Assembly: GCA_016207825.1 (NCBI GenBank)
Contig: JACQZI010000023.1
Location: forward strand, 62,001 to 126,000
Length of the DNA stretch: 64,000 bases
Origin: Planctomycetota bacterium
Lineage (GTDB): Bacteria; Planctomycetota; MHYJ01; JACQXL01; JACQZI01
Direction of reading: 5' to 3'
The notes under the pieces are model-generated. The model made no database searches, was not told where the DNA came from, and saw nothing but the letters and a program-made list of their open reading frames with translations. Positions 24,751 to 60,005 of the stretch are shown piece by piece. The number at the start of each line of letters is the position of its first letter. Within the stretch, counting starts at the first letter, position 1. The position numbers were made by a program, and so were the translations under genes.

Positions 24751-25912
24751 CTACTTCGTCTTAGCTGGGCGAAAGCCCACATCGCCGACCCGACCCGTAA
24801 GTGACCGACCGGCGTCGCCACGGATAGACACCCGCAATTCCGTGACGATGTCGTACCAACAGCCTCCGCGAACGGCTTTGAAATTCCCGCTCGCCGGCCC
24901 TTGCGGATTGTCCTTAGGGCTATTTTTGTAATAGGTCTCATCATACCAATCAGCGCAATACTCCCAGACATTACCGGCAGTGTCATATAGCCCGAACCCG
25001 TTCGGATTTTTCTGTCCGACTGGATGGGTGGTATTTTTTGAATTATCCTGATACCAAGCATAATCGCCGGCTTGTTTCACGTCATCACCCCAGTAGAATT
25101 TAGTAGTTGTCTTGCCGCGGGCGGCATATTCCCACTCCGACTCGGTTGGTAATCTTAATCCCGCTTTCTTACAAAATTCCTGGCAGTCATCCCAGGAAAC
25201 CGTTTCTACCGGGTTGTTCTCGCTCCCGACATCCTTCGCCTCTTCGCTCTGCCGCGCCTTCTTGAAAGACGCCGGGTTATTTCCCATAATTTTCTGCCAA
25301 ACGCTTTGCGTCACTTCATACTTAGCGATGAAGAAATCACTGACGGTTACCTCGTGAACCGGCTTTTCGTAATTAAAGCCGTCGTTTATTCCCATCTTAA
25401 AAGTTCCGCCCGGAATCAGGACAAAGACCAGACCGGTGCCTCCGTGCCGGTATTCTTTATAACCTTGCGGATTAATGTTGATAAAGGTCATCAAGTTAAA
25501 ACTGATTGTTTTGATAATCCATTCCACCCGCATCCGGACCTCCGGTTCTTGGGTTTCCTTGAGGGTTTGCTTCAAGAGCTCCAGAGCCGGTTCGCCGATT
25601 TTAGTTAATTCTTCTTTTGCCTTTTCCCTGGTTTCCCAGTCGTCCGATTTTAGTTAATTCTTCTTTTGCCTTTTCCCTGGTTTCCCAGTCGTCTGAACCT
25701 AAAAGAATGATTAGCTCTCCCTGATGAGCTGCAGTATACTCTCGGATGTCGGGCAGTTGGTTTTCAGTTTCCAGCTTATCGACTCTAACTTCCGGCTTCA
25801 CCGTTCCTCCACACCCGATTAATATCACCATAGAGATACTAAGCACACATAGAAGCCCGAAGGTTATTAGTACACGTAAAACCACACTCCCTTCTAAAGG
25901 TGACCCTTCCAT
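24751..25912 (-). pseudogene. SUMF1-fold (formylglycine-generating-like) lipoprotein broken by a 49-bp tandem duplication
   Basis: Two frames belong to one gene. The 5' piece (25912-25601) encodes a membrane/lipobox segment (SISMVILIGCGG) and a helical HEAT-like start, SDDWETREKAKEELTKI. A perfect 49-bp tandem duplication (25596-25693) then shifts the frame and leads to a stop. The 3' piece (25575-24751) continues the helical region (LKQTLKETQEPEVRMRVEWI) and carries a complete SUMF1 domain (about the last 220 aa): PGGTFKMGI, GLRLPTESEWEYAARG, GNVWEYCADWY, RGGCWYD. The cysteine pair that makes true formylglycine-generating enzymes active is not seen near the C-terminus, so binding rather than catalysis is likely. 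The first ATG overlaps the stop of the SpoVG gene by one base (TAATG). Confidence 0.8.
25596..25693. repeat. Perfect 49-bp tandem duplication
   Basis: Copy 1 is 25596-25644 and copy 2 is 25645-25693, identical and adjacent. The unit length is not a multiple of three, so it disrupts the reading frame of the SUMF1-fold gene. Removing one copy restores a continuous frame. Confidence 0.92.
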
Positions 25913-26283
25913 TATTTAACGTCTTTCAGCTTGAGTTGATATGCCTCAAGAACTTTTTTCTGAATCAGTTCACGGCATTGGTCATTAATCGGATAAGCAA
26001 TATCCTCATAGGTTTTCATATGGATGGAATTATCTAATTTATACATCATTCTGGCACCGCAGGTAGCGCAAAAAAATGCTTTTACGAAGTTCTTTGCATG
26101 GCATTTATGGCACCTGGCGCTTACCGGTAAGCTGGGCATGCCGACAAACATTCCATTTGCGTCTTCAATTACCTGGAAATCGTGGACGACAAAGGCATTA
26201 TCAATAACGATACCACACAAAGCGCGCACCTTACCAGCTTTCCCGCCGACCAGCTTGACATTAACATCAGAAATTTCTATCAT
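25912..26283 (-). CDS. SpoVG-family protein with an inserted zinc ribbon
   Basis: 123 aa. The start (MIEISDVNVKLV), the core FVVHDFQVIEDANGMFVGMPS (about 34-54) and the end DIAYPINDQCRELIQKKVLEAY (about 93-114) match SpoVG, a small nucleic-acid-binding regulator. Between MPS and DIAYPIN, where SpoVG has only a few residues, lie about 40 extra residues with CHKC and CATC pairs 12 residues apart, a likely zinc-ribbon knuckle. SpoVG binds DNA and RNA in several bacteria; the insertion could change its target. The ATG has a promoter at 26316-26344 with a leader of about 25 bases. The stop overlaps the next start (TAATG), implying coupling to the SUMF1-fold gene. Confidence 0.85.
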   Translation of the reverse strand: MIEISDVNVKLVGGKAGKVRALCGIVIDNAFVVHDFQVIEDANGMFVGMPSLPVSARCHKCHAKNFVKAFFCATCGARMMYKLDNSIHMKTYEDIAYPINDQCRELIQKKVLEAYQLKLKDVK

Positions 26284-26518: not shown

Positions 26519-27322
26519 TCATACCTGTGATACCTTCACCGACACCATTTCACCTAATACAGAGTCGTTAATGATATCCAGATGCGAGCCGCCGCCCGGA
26601 CTAAAAGAGACCAAGCCCAAGCCGGGGTCAATAAACATCTGGGCAACCATATTAAGCCTGGCATTAAGGACTGCCAGGATTGCCGGGTCAAGTTCTGCCT
26701 GCTGGGCAACGATTAGCGCAAAGGTCAGGTTTTGGGTCAGCGCCGAGACGAGCGTATTGGCTAAGCCTGGCTGGCAGATATTAAAGGGAGAGCCGGAGAC
26801 GACTATATCCGTCCCAGACCTGATAGAGCCGACCGCTTTCTTATGCTTGGTCAGCCAGTAAGCGGCGATGACGGACGCGCCGATGCCTTCCAGGCGGGTG
26901 CCGGTGGCGCGCAAGGCGCTTTTGGATGCGCCTGCACCCCAGAGATTCTTTGCCGCGGCAACGGCTTCTTTAAAACGTTTCGCCTCGACGCCGTCCACGG
27001 TCGCGAACATGAAATCAAGTTTCTGGCTCCAGTTGGTAAAGGCGGTTCGTAGTTTTTGGCGCTGGGCATTATAAACCATGGTCTGGGTCTTGCCTTTGCG
27101 CGTGGTCGTGATGCCGGTGATGATTTCCTGGTAACCGACGGATGACGGGTCGGCGATTTTATCCGCGAAGGACTGCTCGGTCGGGACGGCGAGTTTGCGC
27201 TTGGCGTTTACCTGGGGAGCGACCAGCCCGAGCACTTGCGCCCATTGGTCGGACGACCTCAAAGGCGCCGAGAAATACGGAAATCCCAGTTTGACATGGA
27301 ACTTTATTATGTCCGGTGTCAT
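26519..27322 (-). CDS. Unknown family A protein, copy 1
   Basis: 267-aa protein of no family I recognise; a full-length paralog lies at 56582-57379. Shared features are the central LDFMFATVDGVEAKRFKEAV (copy 2: LNFMFETIDGVVAKRFKDKV), an AAYWLTKHKKA segment, SGSPFNI/SEPFNVT, and the closing MFIDPGLGLVSFSPGGGSHLD with the terminal KVSQV. No signal peptide or membrane helix, mostly helical with a small-residue-rich middle. GAGAGGAG precedes the ATG. It follows the glycine-rich secreted protein gene, with a hairpin repeat between, and is probably transcribed from the same sigma-54 promoter. Both copies are followed by the same TAGTTCATACCTGTGA sequence over their stop codons. Confidence 0.75.
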   Translation of the reverse strand: MTPDIIKFHVKLGFPYFSAPLRSSDQWAQVLGLVAPQVNAKRKLAVPTEQSFADKIADPSSVGYQEIITGITTTRKGKTQTMVYNAQRQKLRTAFTNWSQKLDFMFATVDGVEAKRFKEAVAAAKNLWGAGASKSALRATGTRLEGIGASVIAAYWLTKHKKAVGSIRSGTDIVVSGSPFNICQPGLANTLVSALTQNLTFALIVAQQAELDPAILAVLNARLNMVAQMFIDPGLGLVSFSPGGGSHLDIINDSVLGEMVSVKVSQV

Positions 27323-27460: not shown

Positions 27461-29767
27461 TTATGGCGGAACACCGATAGCAGTAGCGTTTTCGAATTCA
27501 AGATAACTGCTATCCACTATCTTCACTCCGGCACGCTGACCACCTCCGATATCATTGGCCAGTTTATACACGATGTAATAGGTCTTAGAGGTGGTCGTCA
27601 CTTGCCAGCGTTTCATGTTGAGGTAACACGTGCCGTTGGCGAAATTGCCTTTAGAGATAAGGATATCACCGACATCCCAGAAACCGTTGTTATTATTTTC
27701 GCACCAGACCTGGACTTCGATTTTAGAATCCGGGCAGGCGCTGTTAGAAGAATATGCCTTTAAGCCTTTATCAATACGAAAGCGCTTCCAGCGGGCAGTG
27801 CCATCAAAGGTTTTCATTTCAAACTTGACATGCGCTATTGATTGGCCCATTTGAATAGAATTCCCATTGATAATATCAGACCAGTTGGTGGTGGAGACAG
27901 CCATCCCTGTCGCATATTCCAAGCCCCAATTAGATAGAGTCGGTGTTTTAGTAGAATCGGATGTGGAAAAATTTGCTCTAATCTTTATACCGCTAATGTT
28001 TGTAAATATTTCCGGATAAGTTGCTTTAAGATCAGTTCCTGCCGGAACATTAGCTACTAAAAGAGAACCATTGGATGAACTTAGAACATCCACGGTTAAT
28101 ATGGTATTCGTCGGTGTAGTCTTAGTAAAGGTTAAGACCCCCCAGTAAATAATACCAGTTGGTGTAATTGCAGGTGAGATATAAGCGCCCGGAGTAAGAT
28201 ATGGAATTACCCCGCCGAAATAATTCGGGGTAGGAGCTGTTCCTGAAAAAGAATAATACTTTGTATAAATTCTTCCCCCTCCGCCAGCGCCGCCTTCATT
28301 GTCAAACCCACCACTTCCTCCATTCCCACCATTCGCCGTAATACTACCAGAATTATTTGCGATGTTGGCAAAAAGAATAATTGAACCACCAGCGCCACCA
28401 CCACCTCCTCCACTTCTTGCATTGTTTATAGTTGTTCCATTACTTCCGTTACTACCACCTGCTGTAATAGAAGCTCCAGAAGACATATTGATTGTCGTAG
28501 CAGAAATAAAAACTATTCCGCCTCCATTACCACCTGAAGCACCTGTAGGCTGATCATTAGAAGTTCGTGCACCACCACCTGCTCCTCCTCCCCCGCCTAA
28601 ATATGCTCGTTGATTAAGAGTGCCTGACCCGGCACCATCTGCGGTGCGTCCATCATTTCCACCACCACCACCTCCTCCAGCACAAGTAGAACCGACGATC
28701 GAAAAACCACCTGTTCCACCCGTAGATACTGAGCCTCCGCCTCCATCACCACGTCCCCCTCCTCCTGTTCCGGGAGAGCCATTGCCCCCACCCCCGCCGC
28801 CTCCTCCGGCAGTGCCAACTGTTGCATGATAAGAACCACCACCACCACCGCCACCTAAACCAATATTACCGGCACCACCGGTTCGAGCAGTAATTCCATC
28901 TCCACCAGCACCTCCCCCGCCGCCTTGACCTGAATTACCATTAGTATCATATCTCCCACCGGTAGCACCAATTCCATTATAGGTTACACCACCCGGAGCG
29001 TTTTGACTATAAGTCGTTCCCCCGGCACCACCAGTAAACCCTTTCCCGGAAACAGTAACACCATTAGCAACATTTACCGTAACGGTTCCGCTTACCCGGA
29101 ATGCCACAACGCCACCTTTACCGTTTATCCCCTCATAAGCAGAACAGGTAAATGAACCACCGGAATTAATTGTAACATTAGTATAGTTAGGAACTCTTTG
29201 AACCATAATTTTCTGAGCTGCGCCATTATAGGCGTTAGTAAAATTAACATCCACGGTGATTGAGTTTGAGGCAACTACTGAAACTTTCTTGAATTCATAT
29301 AAGCCGACATTAGCATAATCACCCGAAGCTCCTTTAAGGTTAATAATAATAATTTCATCTCCGACGGCAAACCCATCTGGAACGTCCACCTCTGACGATA
29401 TAACTTTCTGTCCTGACGCAACATTTTGATCGACCTGCCAGTTAACTCCATCAGGTTCTCCCGGGGTCCGGCCAGTAGCAATAGTATCTGAATTAATATT
29501 TTTGGCCGTAGAAATCGTTATTGCGCCATCAGCACCAGTGCCGGTATTAATAGATTCGCTTCGCTTGAGAGTTACATCTGCCGCGCCTGTGGTGGTGACG
29601 GTATCAGTAAAAATCCCATCGGTAAAGGTTGTTTGGGACCAGGAATCAGCATGGACAAAATCCCAATGGCCAATGAGCAATGACCAAACAATGACCCCGC
29701 CAATGGCGAGGCTCGCCCGAATGGGCAGCAATAACCAAATCCCAATGACCGATTTCCTGATTTTCAT
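27461..29767 (-). CDS. Large secreted glycine-rich protein
   Basis: 768 aa. The N-terminus has basic residues followed by a long hydrophobic segment ending near HADSW (about residue 41), a plausible export signal. Residues about 60-215 are beta-rich; about 215-500 are extremely Gly-rich, with repeated GGGGGGG runs alternating with Ser/Asn/Thr; the remainder (about 500-768) is a beta-rich domain with FWDVGDILISKG and YYIVYKLANDIGGGQRAG. The composition suggests a surface or matrix adhesin-like protein. AAAGGAGGATG lies just before the ATG, and a consensus sigma-54 promoter is 80 bases upstream. The hydrophobic signal segment is encoded by CAATGACCAA-type repeat words. No homologous family can be named. 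Confidence 0.75.
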   Translation of the reverse strand: MKIRKSVIGIWLLLPIRASLAIGGVIVWSLLIGHWDFVHADSWSQTTFTDGIFTDTVTTTGAADVTLKRSESINTGTGADGAITISTAKNINSDTIATGRTPGEPDGVNWQVDQNVASGQKVISSEVDVPDGFAVGDEIIIINLKGASGDYANVGLYEFKKVSVVASNSITVDVNFTNAYNGAAQKIMVQRVPNYTNVTINSGGSFTCSAYEGINGKGGVVAFRVSGTVTVNVANGVTVSGKGFTGGAGGTTYSQNAPGGVTYNGIGATGGRYDTNGNSGQGGGGGAGGDGITARTGGAGNIGLGGGGGGGSYHATVGTAGGGGGGGGNGSPGTGGGGRGDGGGGSVSTGGTGGFSIVGSTCAGGGGGGGNDGRTADGAGSGTLNQRAYLGGGGGAGGGARTSNDQPTGASGGNGGGIVFISATTINMSSGASITAGGSNGSNGTTINNARSGGGGGGAGGSIILFANIANNSGSITANGGNGGSGGFDNEGGAGGGGRIYTKYYSFSGTAPTPNYFGGVIPYLTPGAYISPAITPTGIIYWGVLTFTKTTPTNTILTVDVLSSSNGSLLVANVPAGTDLKATYPEIFTNISGIKIRANFSTSDSTKTPTLSNWGLEYATGMAVSTTNWSDIINGNSIQMGQSIAHVKFEMKTFDGTARWKRFRIDKGLKAYSSNSACPDSKIEVQVWCENNNNGFWDVGDILISKGNFANGTCYLNMKRWQVTTTSKTYYIVYKLANDIGGGQRAGVKIVDSSYLEFENATAIGVPP

Positions 29768-29848: not shown

Positions 29849-29867
29849 ATAGCAAATATCGTGCCAA
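29849..29867 (-). promoter_or_regulatory. Sigma-54 promoter 1
   Basis: The minus strand reads TTGGCACGATATTTGCTAT, matching the -24/-12 consensus TGGCACG-N4-TTGCW exactly. It drives the glycine-rich gene at 29767. The identical 19 bases occur upstream of the paralogous locus at 59987-60005. Confidence 0.85.
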
Positions 29868-30003: not shown

Positions 30004-31783
30004 TTACCGTTTGGTAACATCGGCTGGTTTAATGCTGTCGTGTTTTAGTTTCTTACGCAGGCCAAAGCGGGTTAATCCCAATTGCCGGGCGGTTTGAGTG
30101 ATATTGCCCTGATATTTTTGAAGGGCGGTAATAATGGCGTTTCGTTCTATTTCTTTCAGACTTAAACCGTCTTGCCCCATAGTGGTGCTTGGGGTGGAAG
30201 ACAAATAATTACGAATGATTTCCGAGAGCATTATTTCTGTAATGGTTTTAGCATCAGGATACAAAGCACAGATGCGTTTTATCTCGTTTTCTAGTTCGCG
30301 GATATTGCCGGGCCAGGGGTAGGCGGTGAAAAGCGCTAACGCGCTGGGGGATATGTCAGCCCCGACGTTCGTCGGGACTTCGCTTCGCTCCGGAATTTCC
30401 TTACGGGAAGAGAAGCTTTTCTTCCATAACCCGCAGGAGCTTCTGTTGCATAGACGGGGACATATTGGCAACCTCATCTATAAAAAGCGTTCCATCTGAT
30501 GCAAGTTCAATATAACCTTTTTTATCTTCTACGGCACCGGTAAACGAGCCTTTGGTATGGCCGAATAAACTACTTTCAATAAGCGTTTCCGGAAGAACTC
30601 CGCAATTGAACGGGAAATAGATTTTGTCTGCGCGCAGGCTGTTAGTATGTATGGCATTGGCAATAAGTTCCTTGCCTGTTCCGGTTTCACCCTGGATCAG
30701 AATCGGTAAATCAGTCGGGGCAACCTTTTCTATGAGTTGATAAACCTCTTGCATCGGAACGGATTTGCCAACAATATGTTTATAATTAGAAGTTTTAATA
30801 TGCTGATTAAGTGTATCAGCAAGAATAGCTGGAGAAAGGGTTGATTCCTTCGTTGCAGATTGTATTTGCCGGAAGAGCTTTTCAAATTCACGTGTTTTTT
30901 CATAGAGCCAAACGCTGTCGAGTTTGTTTATAATCAGCTTTATTCGTTTTTCAATCATCTCTGCTTTATGGGACATATTTTTAAGAGAATAACATTTGCT
31001 CAAAAGCAAACCGGATTCGCAAATCAGTTCATTAAGTTTTAAACGGCGGGCATCATCAAAAATATTATTTAATGCTGGGATAGCTAAATCTAACCGTTTT
31101 TCCAAGAGGTTAATAATGGCAAGATTGATTCTTCCCGTAATTAGCCCTTGTTGAAAATTTAATTCCTTGCTAAGTTTGACGCATTCTTGAAAAGATTGGG
31201 TCGCCATGTTATACTCTTTTAATACAACTTGATACTCTCCCTTAAGATGATAATAATCTATGCGGGCAAGCTTGTTAGATTGGAAAAGGTTAGGTAAAGA
31301 AAGTTTTGCATCTATGATTTCACGAACTTTTTCTAAGTCATTCTTCTGCAAATAGCACCAAGCTAATCCAATATATGTTGCCGGATACATTTTATCAGAT
31401 AAAAGAGACTTGTTGCCAGGTTTTTGATAGTATTGTTCTACTTTTTGTAATTGATTTAAAGCCTGAGAGATATTTCTCATTTCCAGGAAGTTATTGCCTA
31501 TTAGTAAAGAAGTAAAAGCAATGTCTATTGGCTCAAAATGATGTTTTAAGGCTATCAAATAAGCTTTGTAAAAAACATCAATAGAACGAGAATATTCTGC
31601 CAGATGGTAATAAACGAGACCTGATAAACGGTACAACATATATTCTTCAAAGGGAGTGTAATGAAAAGACGAGAGTTTTTTAGCACTAATTTTGCTGAGT
31701 CGTTTTGCATGGGCCCAATCTTGTTTATTCAAAGCAGACTTGATTTGTTCCAGATAACCGGATAGCGATTGGCGTTTTGTCAT
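30004..31783 (-). pseudogene. Sigma-54-dependent Fis-family activator with internal deletion and frameshift
   Basis: The 5' part (31783-30401) encodes a TPR-like helical sensor region (about 1-300) and the start of the AAA+ domain: GETGTGKELIANAIH (Walker A), FGHTKGSFTGAVED (the sigma-54-contacting loop) and GTLFIDEVANMS (Walker B). It then stops after LLRVMEEKLLFP. The other frame resumes at ISPSALALFTAYPWPGNIRELENEI and runs through the Fis-type helix-turn-helix (NITQTARQLGLTRFGLRKKL) to 30004. Some 80-90 residues holding sensor 1 and the arginine-finger region are missing, replaced by a short hairpin element at 30361-30400. The ATG at 31783 fits the promoter; the TTG at 31819 is its -35 box. 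As it stands it cannot be a working activator. Confidence 0.82.
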
Positions 31784-31790
31784 GGTTCCA

Positions 31791-31819
31791 TTTATACAAA
31801 AAGAAGGAGCGGTTGTCAA
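31791..31819 (-). promoter_or_regulatory. Sigma-70 promoter of the activator gene
   Basis: Minus-strand TTGACA (31819-31814), 17-bp spacer, TATAAA (31796-31791); the ATG at 31783 follows 7 bases later, a leaderless arrangement. Confidence 0.75.
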
Positions 31820-56581: not shown

Positions 56582-57379
56582 TCATACCTGTGACACCTTC
56601 ACCTCTAAAAACAACTGTCCGTTCTCCTTGACGAAGTCCAAGTGAGAAGCACCGCCCGGAGCAAAGGACTCCAGCCCTAATGCCGGATCAATCATCCCCT
56701 GGACAAGCGAGTTATCCAGAAGGTTTAATTCGTCGATTAAAGGCTTTGAAAGGCTCGAATGCATAATCGCCATTCCGCTTTGTATCAGGCGAGACATGAC
56801 AAGCGCTCTCAGGGAATTCCTTTTCTCCACCGTGGTGACGTTGAAGGGTTCGCTCGGAACGACATATTCGTCCGATGCCCTCATCAGCCCCTTGGCTTTT
56901 GAATCACCGGTCAGCCAGTAGACCGCAATCCTTGCCGGACCGCTTTCCAGCGATTTAATACCGGTTAAGGAGAGCGTGGTTTCGCTTAAGCGTTCGGCAT
57001 AAGCTTCCTTGGAAGAATCAACCTTATCCTTGAACCGCTTGGCGACAACGCCGTCAATGGTCTCAAACATAAAATTAAGATTCTTCAGGTATTTCGTCCA
57101 TGCCTTCTTGATTTTATAAGCCTGGGTGGTATTGATTTTGGCCTTGTTCTTACCCTTACGGCTGATAAAAGAAGGATCAAGAACCTTCTGATATTCCTGT
57201 TGCGCAGGCTCGGCAAGCCGTGAAAGATAGGAAACCTCGTCGGGAATTACCGCTTGAAGGCGGTCAATCAGTTTTCCCGCGTTATTGGACAAGCCATTTG
57301 CCCAAAGTTCCGCCATCTGAGGCACGGCGGTTGTTAACGGGTTTATCGCTAACTTTATCCATATTCTTGTGGTACTCAT
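56582..57379 (-). CDS. Unknown family A protein, copy 2
   Basis: 265 aa starting at ATG 57379, which has GGGAGG 8 bases upstream; the same frame is also open further upstream into the protease. Start and length (265 against 267) match copy 1 at 26519-27322. Shared blocks: LNFMFETIDGVVAKRFKDKV, VYWLTGDSKAKG, MIDPALGLESFAPGGASHLDF and the terminal VKVSQV. Rich in helices, no signal peptide or membrane segment. The fact that copy 1 begins at the same place argues that this is a separate gene rather than a protease domain. Function unknown. Confidence 0.75.
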   Translation of the reverse strand: MSTTRIWIKLAINPLTTAVPQMAELWANGLSNNAGKLIDRLQAVIPDEVSYLSRLAEPAQQEYQKVLDPSFISRKGKNKAKINTTQAYKIKKAWTKYLKNLNFMFETIDGVVAKRFKDKVDSSKEAYAERLSETTLSLTGIKSLESGPARIAVYWLTGDSKAKGLMRASDEYVVPSEPFNVTTVEKRNSLRALVMSRLIQSGMAIMHSSLSKPLIDELNLLDNSLVQGMIDPALGLESFAPGGASHLDFVKENGQLFLEVKVSQV

Positions 57380-58639
57380 CGTAGTATCCTCCCGCCCTGA
57401 TACCAATAATGGTTCAGGGCTTTCTGCTAAACCGACACTATTGTCGGATAATTGCATTAATATATATAAACCGTTGGGAGAGCCGGCTGCGTCTTGCCTC
57501 CCGCTCACAGTGCGGGATGACGCTAAAAGCCGACCCAATCCCAACGTTTGACTTTTCCCCTTCACTTCGTTCCGGGGACGTTCGTCCCGATTTATCGGGA
57601 CTCCGTCTTCCGTTTTAATATAGCCAAAACGATTTTGATAACCGTCCTGGCCACACCCAGCCAGAAACTCGACATTACTTTCAGCATAGTCTAACTCCTT
57701 CCTGTGGTTTATTTGCCACGAAGGCACAAAGTCACTAAGTTTTTCTTGGTGTCTTAGAGTCTTGGTGGCCCCGCTCCACTTCGTTTCGGGGACACCCGAT
57801 TGACCCCACTCCACTTTGTTTCGGGGATACCCCGAATAATTGGGAGTCCTCGTATGGGGATAGGGAGTCCCTGCCGTTAGGCATGGGGCTGAATCCAGGA
57901 AATCGTATATTTCCGAGATGGGAACAATTCCCGCCATGGTCGTAACAAGTTGATTACCGCATAGCCGAACCCATACGGCTATCCCAATCAGTTCGTGCGT
58001 ATCTGCCGTGTAAACGGGTCCACCGGAATTACCCGGAAGTATCGGAGCTGTGATTTCTACTGAATCAAAGCTGATAGCCGAGACGATTCCTGAAGACGGC
58101 CTTGGGTTAAGCCCCAATGAACACCCGACAACATACACCGGGGCAAACAGATAATACTTATAATCCCTATTTGCTAACGCAGCAGTTTTTAGATTATAGT
58201 TGTCAGTTTTCAGACTAAGCAATGCCAAATCTTTAACCGTATCCGTAATAACTACAGAAGCGCTTAGTGACTTTGTGCCTTCGTGGCTATAATCGTAGAA
58301 TGTCACCTCGACCTTGGCGTAATTCCCCACCACGTGAGCAGCAGTCAAAACGTAAAGTTCAACCGTTGAATTGTTCAACTGTTCATTAGCTAATGAGCCG
58401 GTGGACTGATGAACCAATGAACCTGGAATGATTACGCCAGTTCCTCTGCCTGATAATGTCGTAATCATGACAGCAGGTTTGAGCATTTCATCATATTCCC
58501 GTTGATATGGGTTGTCCTTAGTAGATAAGGGGCGGATGATAATCACATCCGGCGGCAGTTCCGCCGGCTTGGTCGCCCAAACCGTCAGCCCGATACCCAG
58601 AATTCCTAATATTATTATAAGCAATATTCTCTTCAGCAT
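56582..58639 (-). CDS. Trypsin-like serine protease, frame running through into the family A gene
   Basis: An open frame of 685 codons. Residues 1-250 are an exported trypsin/Deg-type protease: signal anchor (MLKRILLIIILGILGIGLTV), catalytic His102 in LTAAHVVG, Asp137 in VKDLALL and Ser205 in PGNSGGPVY. Three stretches inside it (about 74-95, 116-128, 145-155) look like translated repeat words. Beyond about residue 250 the frame passes through intergenic-type repeats (57714-57890) and over a 31-codon gene, then joins the family A gene at codon 421. The natural protease probably ended near residue 250-280 and lost its stop through repeat insertion. It overlaps the preceding gene by 7 bases. 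Confidence 0.65.
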   Translation of the reverse strand: MLKRILLIIILGILGIGLTVWATKPAELPPDVIIIRPLSTKDNPYQREYDEMLKPAVMITTLSGRGTGVIIPGSLVHQSTGSLANEQLNNSTVELYVLTAAHVVGNYAKVEVTFYDYSHEGTKSLSASVVITDTVKDLALLSLKTDNYNLKTAALANRDYKYYLFAPVYVVGCSLGLNPRPSSGIVSAISFDSVEITAPILPGNSGGPVYTADTHELIGIAVWVRLCGNQLVTTMAGIVPISEIYDFLDSAPCLTAGTPYPHTRTPNYSGYPRNKVEWGQSGVPETKWSGATKTLRHQEKLSDFVPSWQINHRKELDYAESNVEFLAGCGQDGYQNRFGYIKTEDGVPINRDERPRNEVKGKSQTLGLGRLLASSRTVSGRQDAAGSPNGLYILMQLSDNSVGLAESPEPLLVSGREDTTMSTTRIWIKLAINPLTTAVPQMAELWANGLSNNAGKLIDRLQAVIPDEVSYLSRLAEPAQQEYQKVLDPSFISRKGKNKAKINTTQAYKIKKAWTKYLKNLNFMFETIDGVVAKRFKDKVDSSKEAYAERLSETTLSLTGIKSLESGPARIAVYWLTGDSKAKGLMRASDEYVVPSEPFNVTTVEKRNSLRALVMSRLIQSGMAIMHSSLSKPLIDELNLLDNSLVQGMIDPALGLESFAPGGASHLDFVKENGQLFLEVKVSQV
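57592..57687 (-). CDS. 31-aa membrane peptide with strong ribosome-binding site
   Basis: ATG at 57687 with AGGAAGGAG 6 bases upstream, stop at 57592. The peptide has one hydrophobic helix (SSFWLGVARTVIKIVLAIL) and a basic tail, KRKTESR. It lies in a frame different from the long protease frame, directly upstream of the family A gene. Too short to identify; the signal and composition make it likely to be translated. Confidence 0.5.
   Translation of the reverse strand: MLKVMSSFWLGVARTVIKIVLAILKRKTESR
57714..57890. repeat. Cluster of dispersed repeats within the protease/family A frame
   Basis: GCCACGAAGGCACAAAGTCA (57714-57733) with CTTAGAGTCTTGGTGGC (57753-57769) is a paired-word hairpin; then two nested copies of the CCCCGCTCCACTT / TTTCGGGGA element and GGGAGTCCCTGCC follow to 57890. 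Confidence 0.75.
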
Positions 58640-58983
58640 TTTCTTACCCTCGCTTTCCCGGCATCATCTGCCTCTTCCAGCCAGCCGGTAAAGAACCGTT
58701 TGCCGAAACGCTTAACCGCCTCTTCCTTATGCATCATGTAATACTGGAGTTCCTCATGGTTAATCCGATACTTGCCCAGTATATAGCGCGAATTGCTGTT
58801 ATGGGGGAACTCGCCCAGGTAGCAATACCTGCACAGATCCTGCGCCCGCGCCGCCTGCGAAGTGATACCGTTGTCTTCCGGCAATGGATTGGGGCATTTC
58901 TTGCAATTGGGTTTTGGCTCATTTGCCATTGGCTCATTTTCCCTCCCCGATGCCTTCGGTCGGGACTTTGTTTCTCTACGCAT
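58633..58983 (-). CDS. Small protein with cysteine pairs, first part of the protease locus
   Basis: 116 aa. Strong Shine-Dalgarno site (AAAGGAGGG) 8 bases before the ATG. Two CXXC pairs (NCKKC about 27-30, LCRYC about 51-54) about 21 residues apart may bind zinc; the rest is helical and ends VRKC. No known family. It overlaps the protease start by 7 bases, so the two are translationally coupled. A perfect 10-bp inverted repeat lies about 80 bases upstream. Confidence 0.6.
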   Translation of the reverse strand: MRRETKSRPKASGRENEPMANEPKPNCKKCPNPLPEDNGITSQAARAQDLCRYCYLGEFPHNSNSRYILGKYRINHEELQYYMMHKEEAVKRFGKRFFTGWLEEADDAGKARVRKC

Positions 58984-59284: not shown

Positions 59285-59704
59285 CTAATTCAGCCCTCTA
59301 AAGAACTGGATTATGGGCTTTTTGATGTATCGGGTAAGGAAGTAATAGAGGCATCGCCTGGTCTTTCCGTGCTTTTCGTAAATCTCGTCCAGATTCCAAT
59401 CCAGGTCATAAAGCGCCATTATGATATCCCAGTGTTCGCGCTCGAAACTGCGCATGAGGTAGGTAATGAGAGAGATGGTTTCCTTGAGGGAGAAGCTTTT
59501 AAAGGCAAGCTCATCATCCCGGCGCTGGAGCCAGCGGTAATCATCCCGGACCGTGCGCAGGATTTGCCTTAACTCCCTGCCCTTGATGCCGCATTTATTG
59601 AGGGTCTGCCGCCATTGGAATTTATTATCGTCTAAGGATTGGAGCCGCTTCAAGGCTGCGTCTTTGGGGAGATGGATATAGATGCGTGCCAGGAGATAGA
59701 CCAT
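59285..59704 (-). CDS. Small helical protein of unknown function
   Basis: 139 aa from ATG 59704; the frame is open upstream to 59830 with an Asp/Tyr-rich extension (YDGKDSDDHDYSYQDG) but no usual start codon there. Helical and basic, rich in Arg and Leu, with REMVYLLARIYIHL before and WRQTLNKCGIKGRELRQILR around residues 33-52. It lies about 280 bases downstream of sigma-54 promoter 2 and is the first clear gene of that locus. No family recognised. Confidence 0.55.
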   Translation of the reverse strand: MVYLLARIYIHLPKDAALKRLQSLDDNKFQWRQTLNKCGIKGRELRQILRTVRDDYRWLQRRDDELAFKSFSLKETISLITYLMRSFEREHWDIIMALYDLDWNLDEIYEKHGKTRRCLYYFLTRYIKKPIIQFFRGLN

Positions 59705-59986: not shown

Positions 59987-60005
59987 ATAGCAAATATCGT
60001 GCCAA
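59987..60005 (-). promoter_or_regulatory. Sigma-54 promoter 2
   Basis: The minus strand again reads TTGGCACGATATTTGCTAT, identical to promoter 1 at 29849-29867. It points into the protease / family A locus. Confidence 0.82.

Follow-up and report, generated by a model that had tools for sequence, protein, structure and literature searches.

The window analysed here is a stretch of 64,000 nucleotides from the genome of a groundwater Planctomycetota bacterium (G000; 2.89 Mb, 97.6% complete). It contains two full-length genes of a protein family that we term family A: copy 1 (P0001, 267 amino acids, positions 26519..27322) and copy 2 (P0002, 265 amino acids, positions 56582..57379). A sequence-only reading of this DNA had located both open reading frames correctly and had described in them an FMF-TxDGVxAKRFK core, a DPxLGLxSFxPGGxSHLD segment and a KVSQV end, all of which we find in P0001 and P0002. 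It had given no strand; both genes lie on the minus strand, as does every other window feature located below.

At locus 1, copy 1 is preceded by a gene for a 768-residue protein with a hydrophobic N terminus, which is probably secretory (27461..29767). Compared with the sister locus L031, the ends of this protein are conserved and its middle is variable, and only a weak similarity to AgmC_N could be found. A perfect sigma-54 (−24/−12) motif, TGGCACGATATTTGC, is located upstream of the locus (29852..29866). The adjoining gene for a TPR-containing sigma-54 activator (30004..31819) is split into two open reading frames (30401-31819 and 30004-30477), while its homologue in L031 is intact and encoded by one frame of 664 residues. 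The split, at about position 30400, coincides with a short palindrome-like sequence, gtcccgacgaacgtcggggc, within the AAA domain. Directly downstream of copy 1 we note a SpoVG-domain protein with a zinc-ribbon-like insertion (25912-26283).

Locus 2 contains, upstream of copy 2, a small gene with a ribosome-binding site that encodes a 31-residue cationic amphipathic peptide, MLKVMSSFWLGVARTVIKIVLAILKRKTESR (57592..57687), and a gene for a protein with an HtrA/trypsin-like protease domain, an N-terminal membrane anchor and conserved H, D and S residues (57887..58639). The frame of copy 2 is continuous with that of the protease, the two forming one open reading frame of 685 codons. Further upstream are a small zinc-ribbon protein of 116 residues, which recurs in family A loci (58633..58983), and a 139-residue protein, which looks HTH-like by eye (the Pfam match to HTH_23 has an E-value of only 0.16) and recurs upstream of loci with both protease and family A (59285..59704). 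A second perfect copy of TGGCACGATATTTGC precedes the locus (59990..60004). No Rfam family was detected within the window.

The motifs support the earlier view that both loci are sigma-54-driven. The extended motif has 26 sites in the genome and none for a reversed control. Such a site precedes just a few of the G000 family A loci, and most copies lack it. Other family A loci adjoin ECF sigma factors, some of them with an anti-sigma-like or TPR partner.

Sequence, fold and range of family A

P0001 and P0002 are related far beyond chance (E = 6.6e-42 in a whole-genome search) and share ∼33% sequence identity over their whole length. They had been taken as a pair of paralogs; they are indeed related, but they belong to a much larger set in G000 of 44-45 matches, of which about 30 span the full length. 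The two window genes had also been proposed to stem from a recent duplication or to carry a selected 3′ sequence, as a string over the stop codon appeared conserved. This string, the 16-mer TAGTTCATACCTGTGA, is indeed found exactly at the stop codons of both copies, but among the fetched G000 loci it occurs with at most one mismatch in only four family A members (both window copies, C11:38025 and C14:52297) and thus is not a family-wide feature. Across 30 paralogues, identity at fourfold-degenerate sites is 0.33-0.43 along the entire gene, the 3′ end included, and is saturated, whereas amino-acid identity rises from 0.23-0.43 to 0.55 in alignment columns 226-250, in the region of the last 40 residues. 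The C terminus is thus conserved at the level of the protein and not of the DNA, which gives no support to a selected 3′ DNA element, and it is conserved in this way only in G000. The identity of only ∼33% and the saturated synonymous sites rule out a recent duplication of the window pair, and the latter also speak against gene conversion of the 3′ end. The family A paralogues are old and anciently diverged, and only P0001 has recent sisters, which are located elsewhere in G000 (C11:38025 and C40:25059) and are 94 and 96% identical to it.

Two further observations concern sequences that resemble parts of family A. G000 contains a dispersed repeat of ∼400 bp in ∼17 full or partial copies, which are 75-97% identical and end in a relic of the family A C terminus (L068:7890-8447; C10:172556, C14:18217, C31, C16, C23:154992, C39 and others); three of them retain the tail through VSQV and a terminator. 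Directly downstream of the family A copy in L031, a 225-residue protein (L031:9269-9946, plus strand) shows a remote likeness to the N terminus and middle of family A (E = 8e-4) and is possibly a divergent subfamily.

Family A had been described as having no recognizable domain, and our searches agree. The best Pfam match is DUF6202 with a non-significant E-value of 0.096, the best NCBIfam match (E = 0.0052) scores far under its cut-off, and neither PHROGs nor PADLOC returned a match. A sequence search of the PDB yielded no hits, and the best hit of a profile search has an E-value of 0.13. We calculated an AlphaFold2 model from a 29-row alignment (pLDDT 88.9, pTM 0.70), which predicts a helical body preceded by an N-terminal strand, with a β-hairpin at the C terminus. 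Foldseek searches with this model found no match (best E-values are 1.4 in the PDB and 0.56 among viral models in BFVD). The alignment contains no invariant residues of catalytic appearance, and we found no paper on the family. Profile search and structure prediction, which the sequence-only reading had proposed as checks, thus return no strong match to a characterized family, and family A is a protein family not described before.

Its range is confined to its own order. Family A is present in six of nine sampled genomes of one Planctomycetota order of Brocadiia-like groundwater bacteria, with 8 matches in G001, 21 in G003, 6 in G005, 2 in G006 and 31 in G007 besides those in G000; none were found in G002, G004 and G008. 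These copy numbers are approximate, as the genomes are metagenome assemblies whose contigs break at family A and fibre repeats. Among 59 relatives the family was not found outside the six carriers, and a search of 392 genomes of the phylum gave no convincing match outside the order; one weak match (G339, E = 1e-4) was discounted because the local sequence looks repetitive. When we scanned the genomes of 84,980 species with the motif DG[VE]xAKR[FY]K, which very divergent members would escape, matches occurred only in groundwater Planctomycetota/Ca. Brocadiia assemblies. No match was found in viral contigs (IMG/VR pattern scan), INPHARED phages, PHROGs or plasmids; the scans of genome contigs and viral contigs drew on an alignment narrower than the 29-member set. 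The family A tree shows large expansions specific to G000, and the members from G001, which belongs to the same genus, are closest to those of G003 and G007. In G000 the family accounts for roughly 1% of the coding length of a small genome. A confidently predicted fold with no known match, a range of one order and the dedicated partners described below point to an unnamed, lineage-specific biological system.

Protease, peptide and fibre partners

A survey of what precedes the family A genes, which the sequence-only reading had also suggested, revealed a dedicated protease and a small peptide gene, both of which it had missed. The neighborhoods described here are based on ORF calls and not on curated genes. 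The upstream protease contains a Trypsin_2 domain (Pfam, E = 1.2e-18), and its residues His-102, Asp-137 and Ser-205 are invariant in 12 sequences. Pfam scans reported only trypsin-type domains and one spurious match, and no PDZ domain. A profile search of the nine genomes of the order returned 20 strong matches (9 in G000, 4 in G003 and 7 in G007), and each of the 20 has a family A gene downstream of it in the same orientation; the next-best match is a generic HtrA (E = 7e-26). Only about a third of the full-length G000 copies have the protease. Judged by its sequence, it is a separate HtrA-like subfamily tied to family A.

In four G000 loci, window copy 2 included, the frame from protease to family A stays open over 64-171 codons (P = 0, 0.017, 0.0075 and 0.018 compared with shuffled sequence). 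The linkers have sequence common to several loci, and the window linker overlaps the small peptide gene. We considered the translated linker as proof of a fusion between protease and family A and rejected it, since, in addition, the differences between L033 and L034, assessed by eye, do not look constrained as protein; the open frame is a hint only. The protease of G003 ends directly past its domain.

By comparing short open reading frames upstream of family A, we found a family of small peptides (26-31 residues) with the consensus MxxxMSxFWKRVIRTVIEIVLxxIRxKxKK. There are 13 genome-wide matches in the order at E < 1e-12, 12 of which are directly upstream of a family A gene; the exception, L214, lies on a short contig and precedes another ORF. 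None were found in G002, G004 and G008. The window gene is located inside a stretch of 148 bp that matches another locus at 98.6% identity, compared with 77-85% in the flanks. Differences among the peptide genes fall mostly on the third and least on the second codon position (0.39/0.19/0.51 for positions one to three). With a net charge of +2 to +9 and a hydrophobic moment (μH) of 0.51-0.80, the peptide is predicted to form a membrane-active helix. Two proteases (L044:9901 and L045:9773) carry an amphipathic N-terminal stretch, MFKKIFKGILKVAVEVLLTIIKRKVEKKLEDM, which could represent the small peptide fused to the protease. Many family A copies lack both partners in their vicinity.

A third partner, likewise missed by the sequence-only reading, is found in the relatives. 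In G003 a fibre gene is located directly downstream of family A, on the same strand, in at least 11 of 20 examined cases, and G007 and G001 repeatedly show the same gene order. The product resembles trimeric fibres; its shaft consists of phage tail-fibre repeats (PHROG 892, E = 2.4e-37 to 1.2e-28; 94 phage records matched by tblastn) and leads to a tip of ∼110 residues. Structure prediction gave a reasonably confident tip and an unresolved shaft. With the monomer model of the tip, Foldseek returned TNF-like domains, among them Pgp3, BC2L-C, PLTL and the lambda tail tip (E = 3e-5 to 1e-3). We rejected an origin from a phage or contractile particle (an R-type tailocin or a contractile injection system), as family A has no relatives in the phages and viral contigs searched and the contractile sheath PF04984 is found in none of the nine genomes of the order; control genomes gave sheath matches.

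Fibres that have no family A upstream mostly have other base proteins of ∼207-230 residues there, Fn3-type ones included, and hhalign detected no homology between these and family A. We noted at least three further base families of ∼210-230 residues upstream of the same fibres, one with a terminal Fn3 domain (L161:6450, L182:5804, L166:5320, L184:7605 and L185:6974). The fibre gene is missing in G005, which has six family A matches, and in G002, G004 and G008, which lack family A and the peptide as well. G000 has about 30 full-length family A genes and only three fibre genes, none of which adjoins family A; the fibre is thus not obligatory.

Genes that adjoin some family A cassettes (L115, L116, L118 and L057) encode AbiEi/AbiEii, a type III restriction enzyme, an FRG-domain (PDC-S15) protein and SIR2. 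Taken together, family A genes occur in recurrent, regulated cassettes, under sigma-54 or an ECF sigma factor, with an HtrA-like protease and/or a small peptide, and in the relatives with a fibre.

Evolution of the fibre tip and its proposed base

Comparison of 19 family A-fibre pairs revealed opposite patterns of evolution in the putative base and the tip. Within a genome, tips of the main type are 81-95% identical while the family A proteins share ∼30-35% identity. Between genomes, tips are only ∼28% identical, even where family A reaches 81% (G001/G003), 72% (G001/G007) or 53% (G003/G007). In the G001/G003 pair identity falls along the cassette, from 81% in family A to 60% in the shaft and 28% in the tip. 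One such pair (L123/L164) is syntenic, with an upstream ECF sigma factor and a TPR protein in common. Fourfold-site identity in the tips is raised to about 0.5-0.6, and up to 0.8, compared with about 0.35, and recent spread or conversion thus contributes to the likeness of tips within a genome.

The uniform tip suggests one common, genome-specific contact, and common docking or recognition of self or kin appears to fit it better than a diversifying arms race. A base that is conserved between species and diverse within a genome, combined with a tip that is uniform within a genome and different between species, is a clear and testable signature, which could separate self-recognition or common docking from targeting of prey or host.

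Possible roles of the family A cassettes

Our preferred, though tentative, reading is that family A acts as an exchangeable base or adaptor subunit of an envelope-associated fibre system in one Planctomycetota order. That the cassette products form a complex, where it is located and what it does, we infer. In this system family A, with its helical body, N-terminal strand and C-terminal β-hairpin, would grip the fibre at its N terminus. Positioning or processing of the complex at the cytoplasmic membrane would fall to the peptide and the protease, and the uniform tip would dock on one genome-specific partner common to all cassettes, perhaps kin cells or the surface of the cell itself. Most G000 copies have no fibre, and in this genome the conserved C-terminal hairpin (DPxLGLxSFxPGGASHLDF...VSQV) may be that common contact and would take over from the tip. 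The envelope location is suggested by the membrane anchor of the protease and by the apparent in-frame fusions of protease and family A at the four G000 loci, although translation of these linkers is uncertain. No obvious export signal was found in family A or in the fibre.

A further reading, slightly less probable, is an undescribed system for fibre display or self-recognition in Planctomycetota. It would combine many interchangeable bases, drawn from family A and from three or more unrelated families, with a tip that is uniform per genome and exchanged from one species to the next. Every cassette of a cell would thereby address one genome-specific partner, and the system would have a built-in membrane protease and micro-peptide. 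These two components provide concrete handles for experiments.

Two other explanations appear unlikely to us. The cassettes could release a bacteriocin-like agent directed at kin or competitors, in which the peptide permeabilizes the membrane of producer or target, the tip binds the same or closely related cells, and the variable component, active itself or serving as carrier, is family A. A small cationic amphipathic peptide within the cassette, a TNF-like tip, possibly of the receptor-binding type, that is uniform within species, the absence of signal peptides and the stress-type regulation (ECF, sigma-54) are consistent with such a role. However, we recognized no immunity gene, and family A has no known lethal domain and no catalytic-looking invariant residues; 20-45 loci per genome are far above the usual number, and most G000 copies lack both peptide and fibre.

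The second of these, to which we also assign a low probability, is an intracellular or periplasmic stress module. Here the HtrA-like protease would act on family A or be regulated by it, and the fibre, with no role in this species, would be a lineage-specific addition. The invariable position of the protease upstream of family A (20/20), the stop-free in-frame linkers of the four G000 loci, the control by sigma-54 or ECF factors and the lack of a fibre at most G000 loci argue for it, whereas the recurrence of the fibre downstream of family A in G003, G007 and G001, and the fact that the protease accompanies only about a third of the full-length G000 copies, argue against it.

It seems quite improbable that the cassettes are components of defence islands that protect against phages or plasmids: some do adjoin AbiE, restriction, FRG-domain and SIR2 genes, but these neighbors were picked by eye, PADLOC has no match for family A, and many loci lie among housekeeping genes. 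Least probable of all is that an undescribed mobile element encodes family A. Its copies are dispersed, three of them being near-identical, contigs break at the 3′ ends of its genes, and a ∼400-bp dispersed repeat carries a relic of its C terminus. Against this, G001 and G003, which belong to different families, share one syntenic locus with upstream regulator genes in common, the paralogues are anciently diverged, the operon partners are dedicated and the family is absent from the phages, viral contigs and plasmids searched.

Components of the putative fibre system can be compared with several known systems. Small amphipathic membrane peptides include type I toxins such as TisB and the phenol-soluble modulins; by description, the family A-linked peptide resembles them in its length of 26-31 residues, its charge and its amphipathic helix. 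The protease shares the Trypsin_2 domain, the conserved H, D and S residues and the N-terminal hydrophobic anchor with the serine proteases HtrA, DegP and DegS, but has no PDZ match and scores far under the DegP/DegS cut-offs. In Foldseek searches the fibre tip is closest to chlamydial Pgp3 and the bacterial TNF-like lectins BC2L-C and PLTL (E = 3e-5 to 6e-4); sequence identity is ∼10% and TM-scores are low for this moderate-confidence monomer model, and no shaft or base is held in common. Phage tail fibres (PHROG 892 and similar, and fibres of cyanophages and of Vibrio and Gordonia phages) share the ∼10-residue AVTxxKIxDG shaft repeats, and the tip of the family A-linked fibre may be a jelly roll like those of phage fibres. 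In contrast to these, the fibres described here are encoded in chromosomal cassettes of one to few genes with no sheath gene, have as a putative base family A, which is absent from the phages searched, and carry a tip that is genome-specific and common to many loci.
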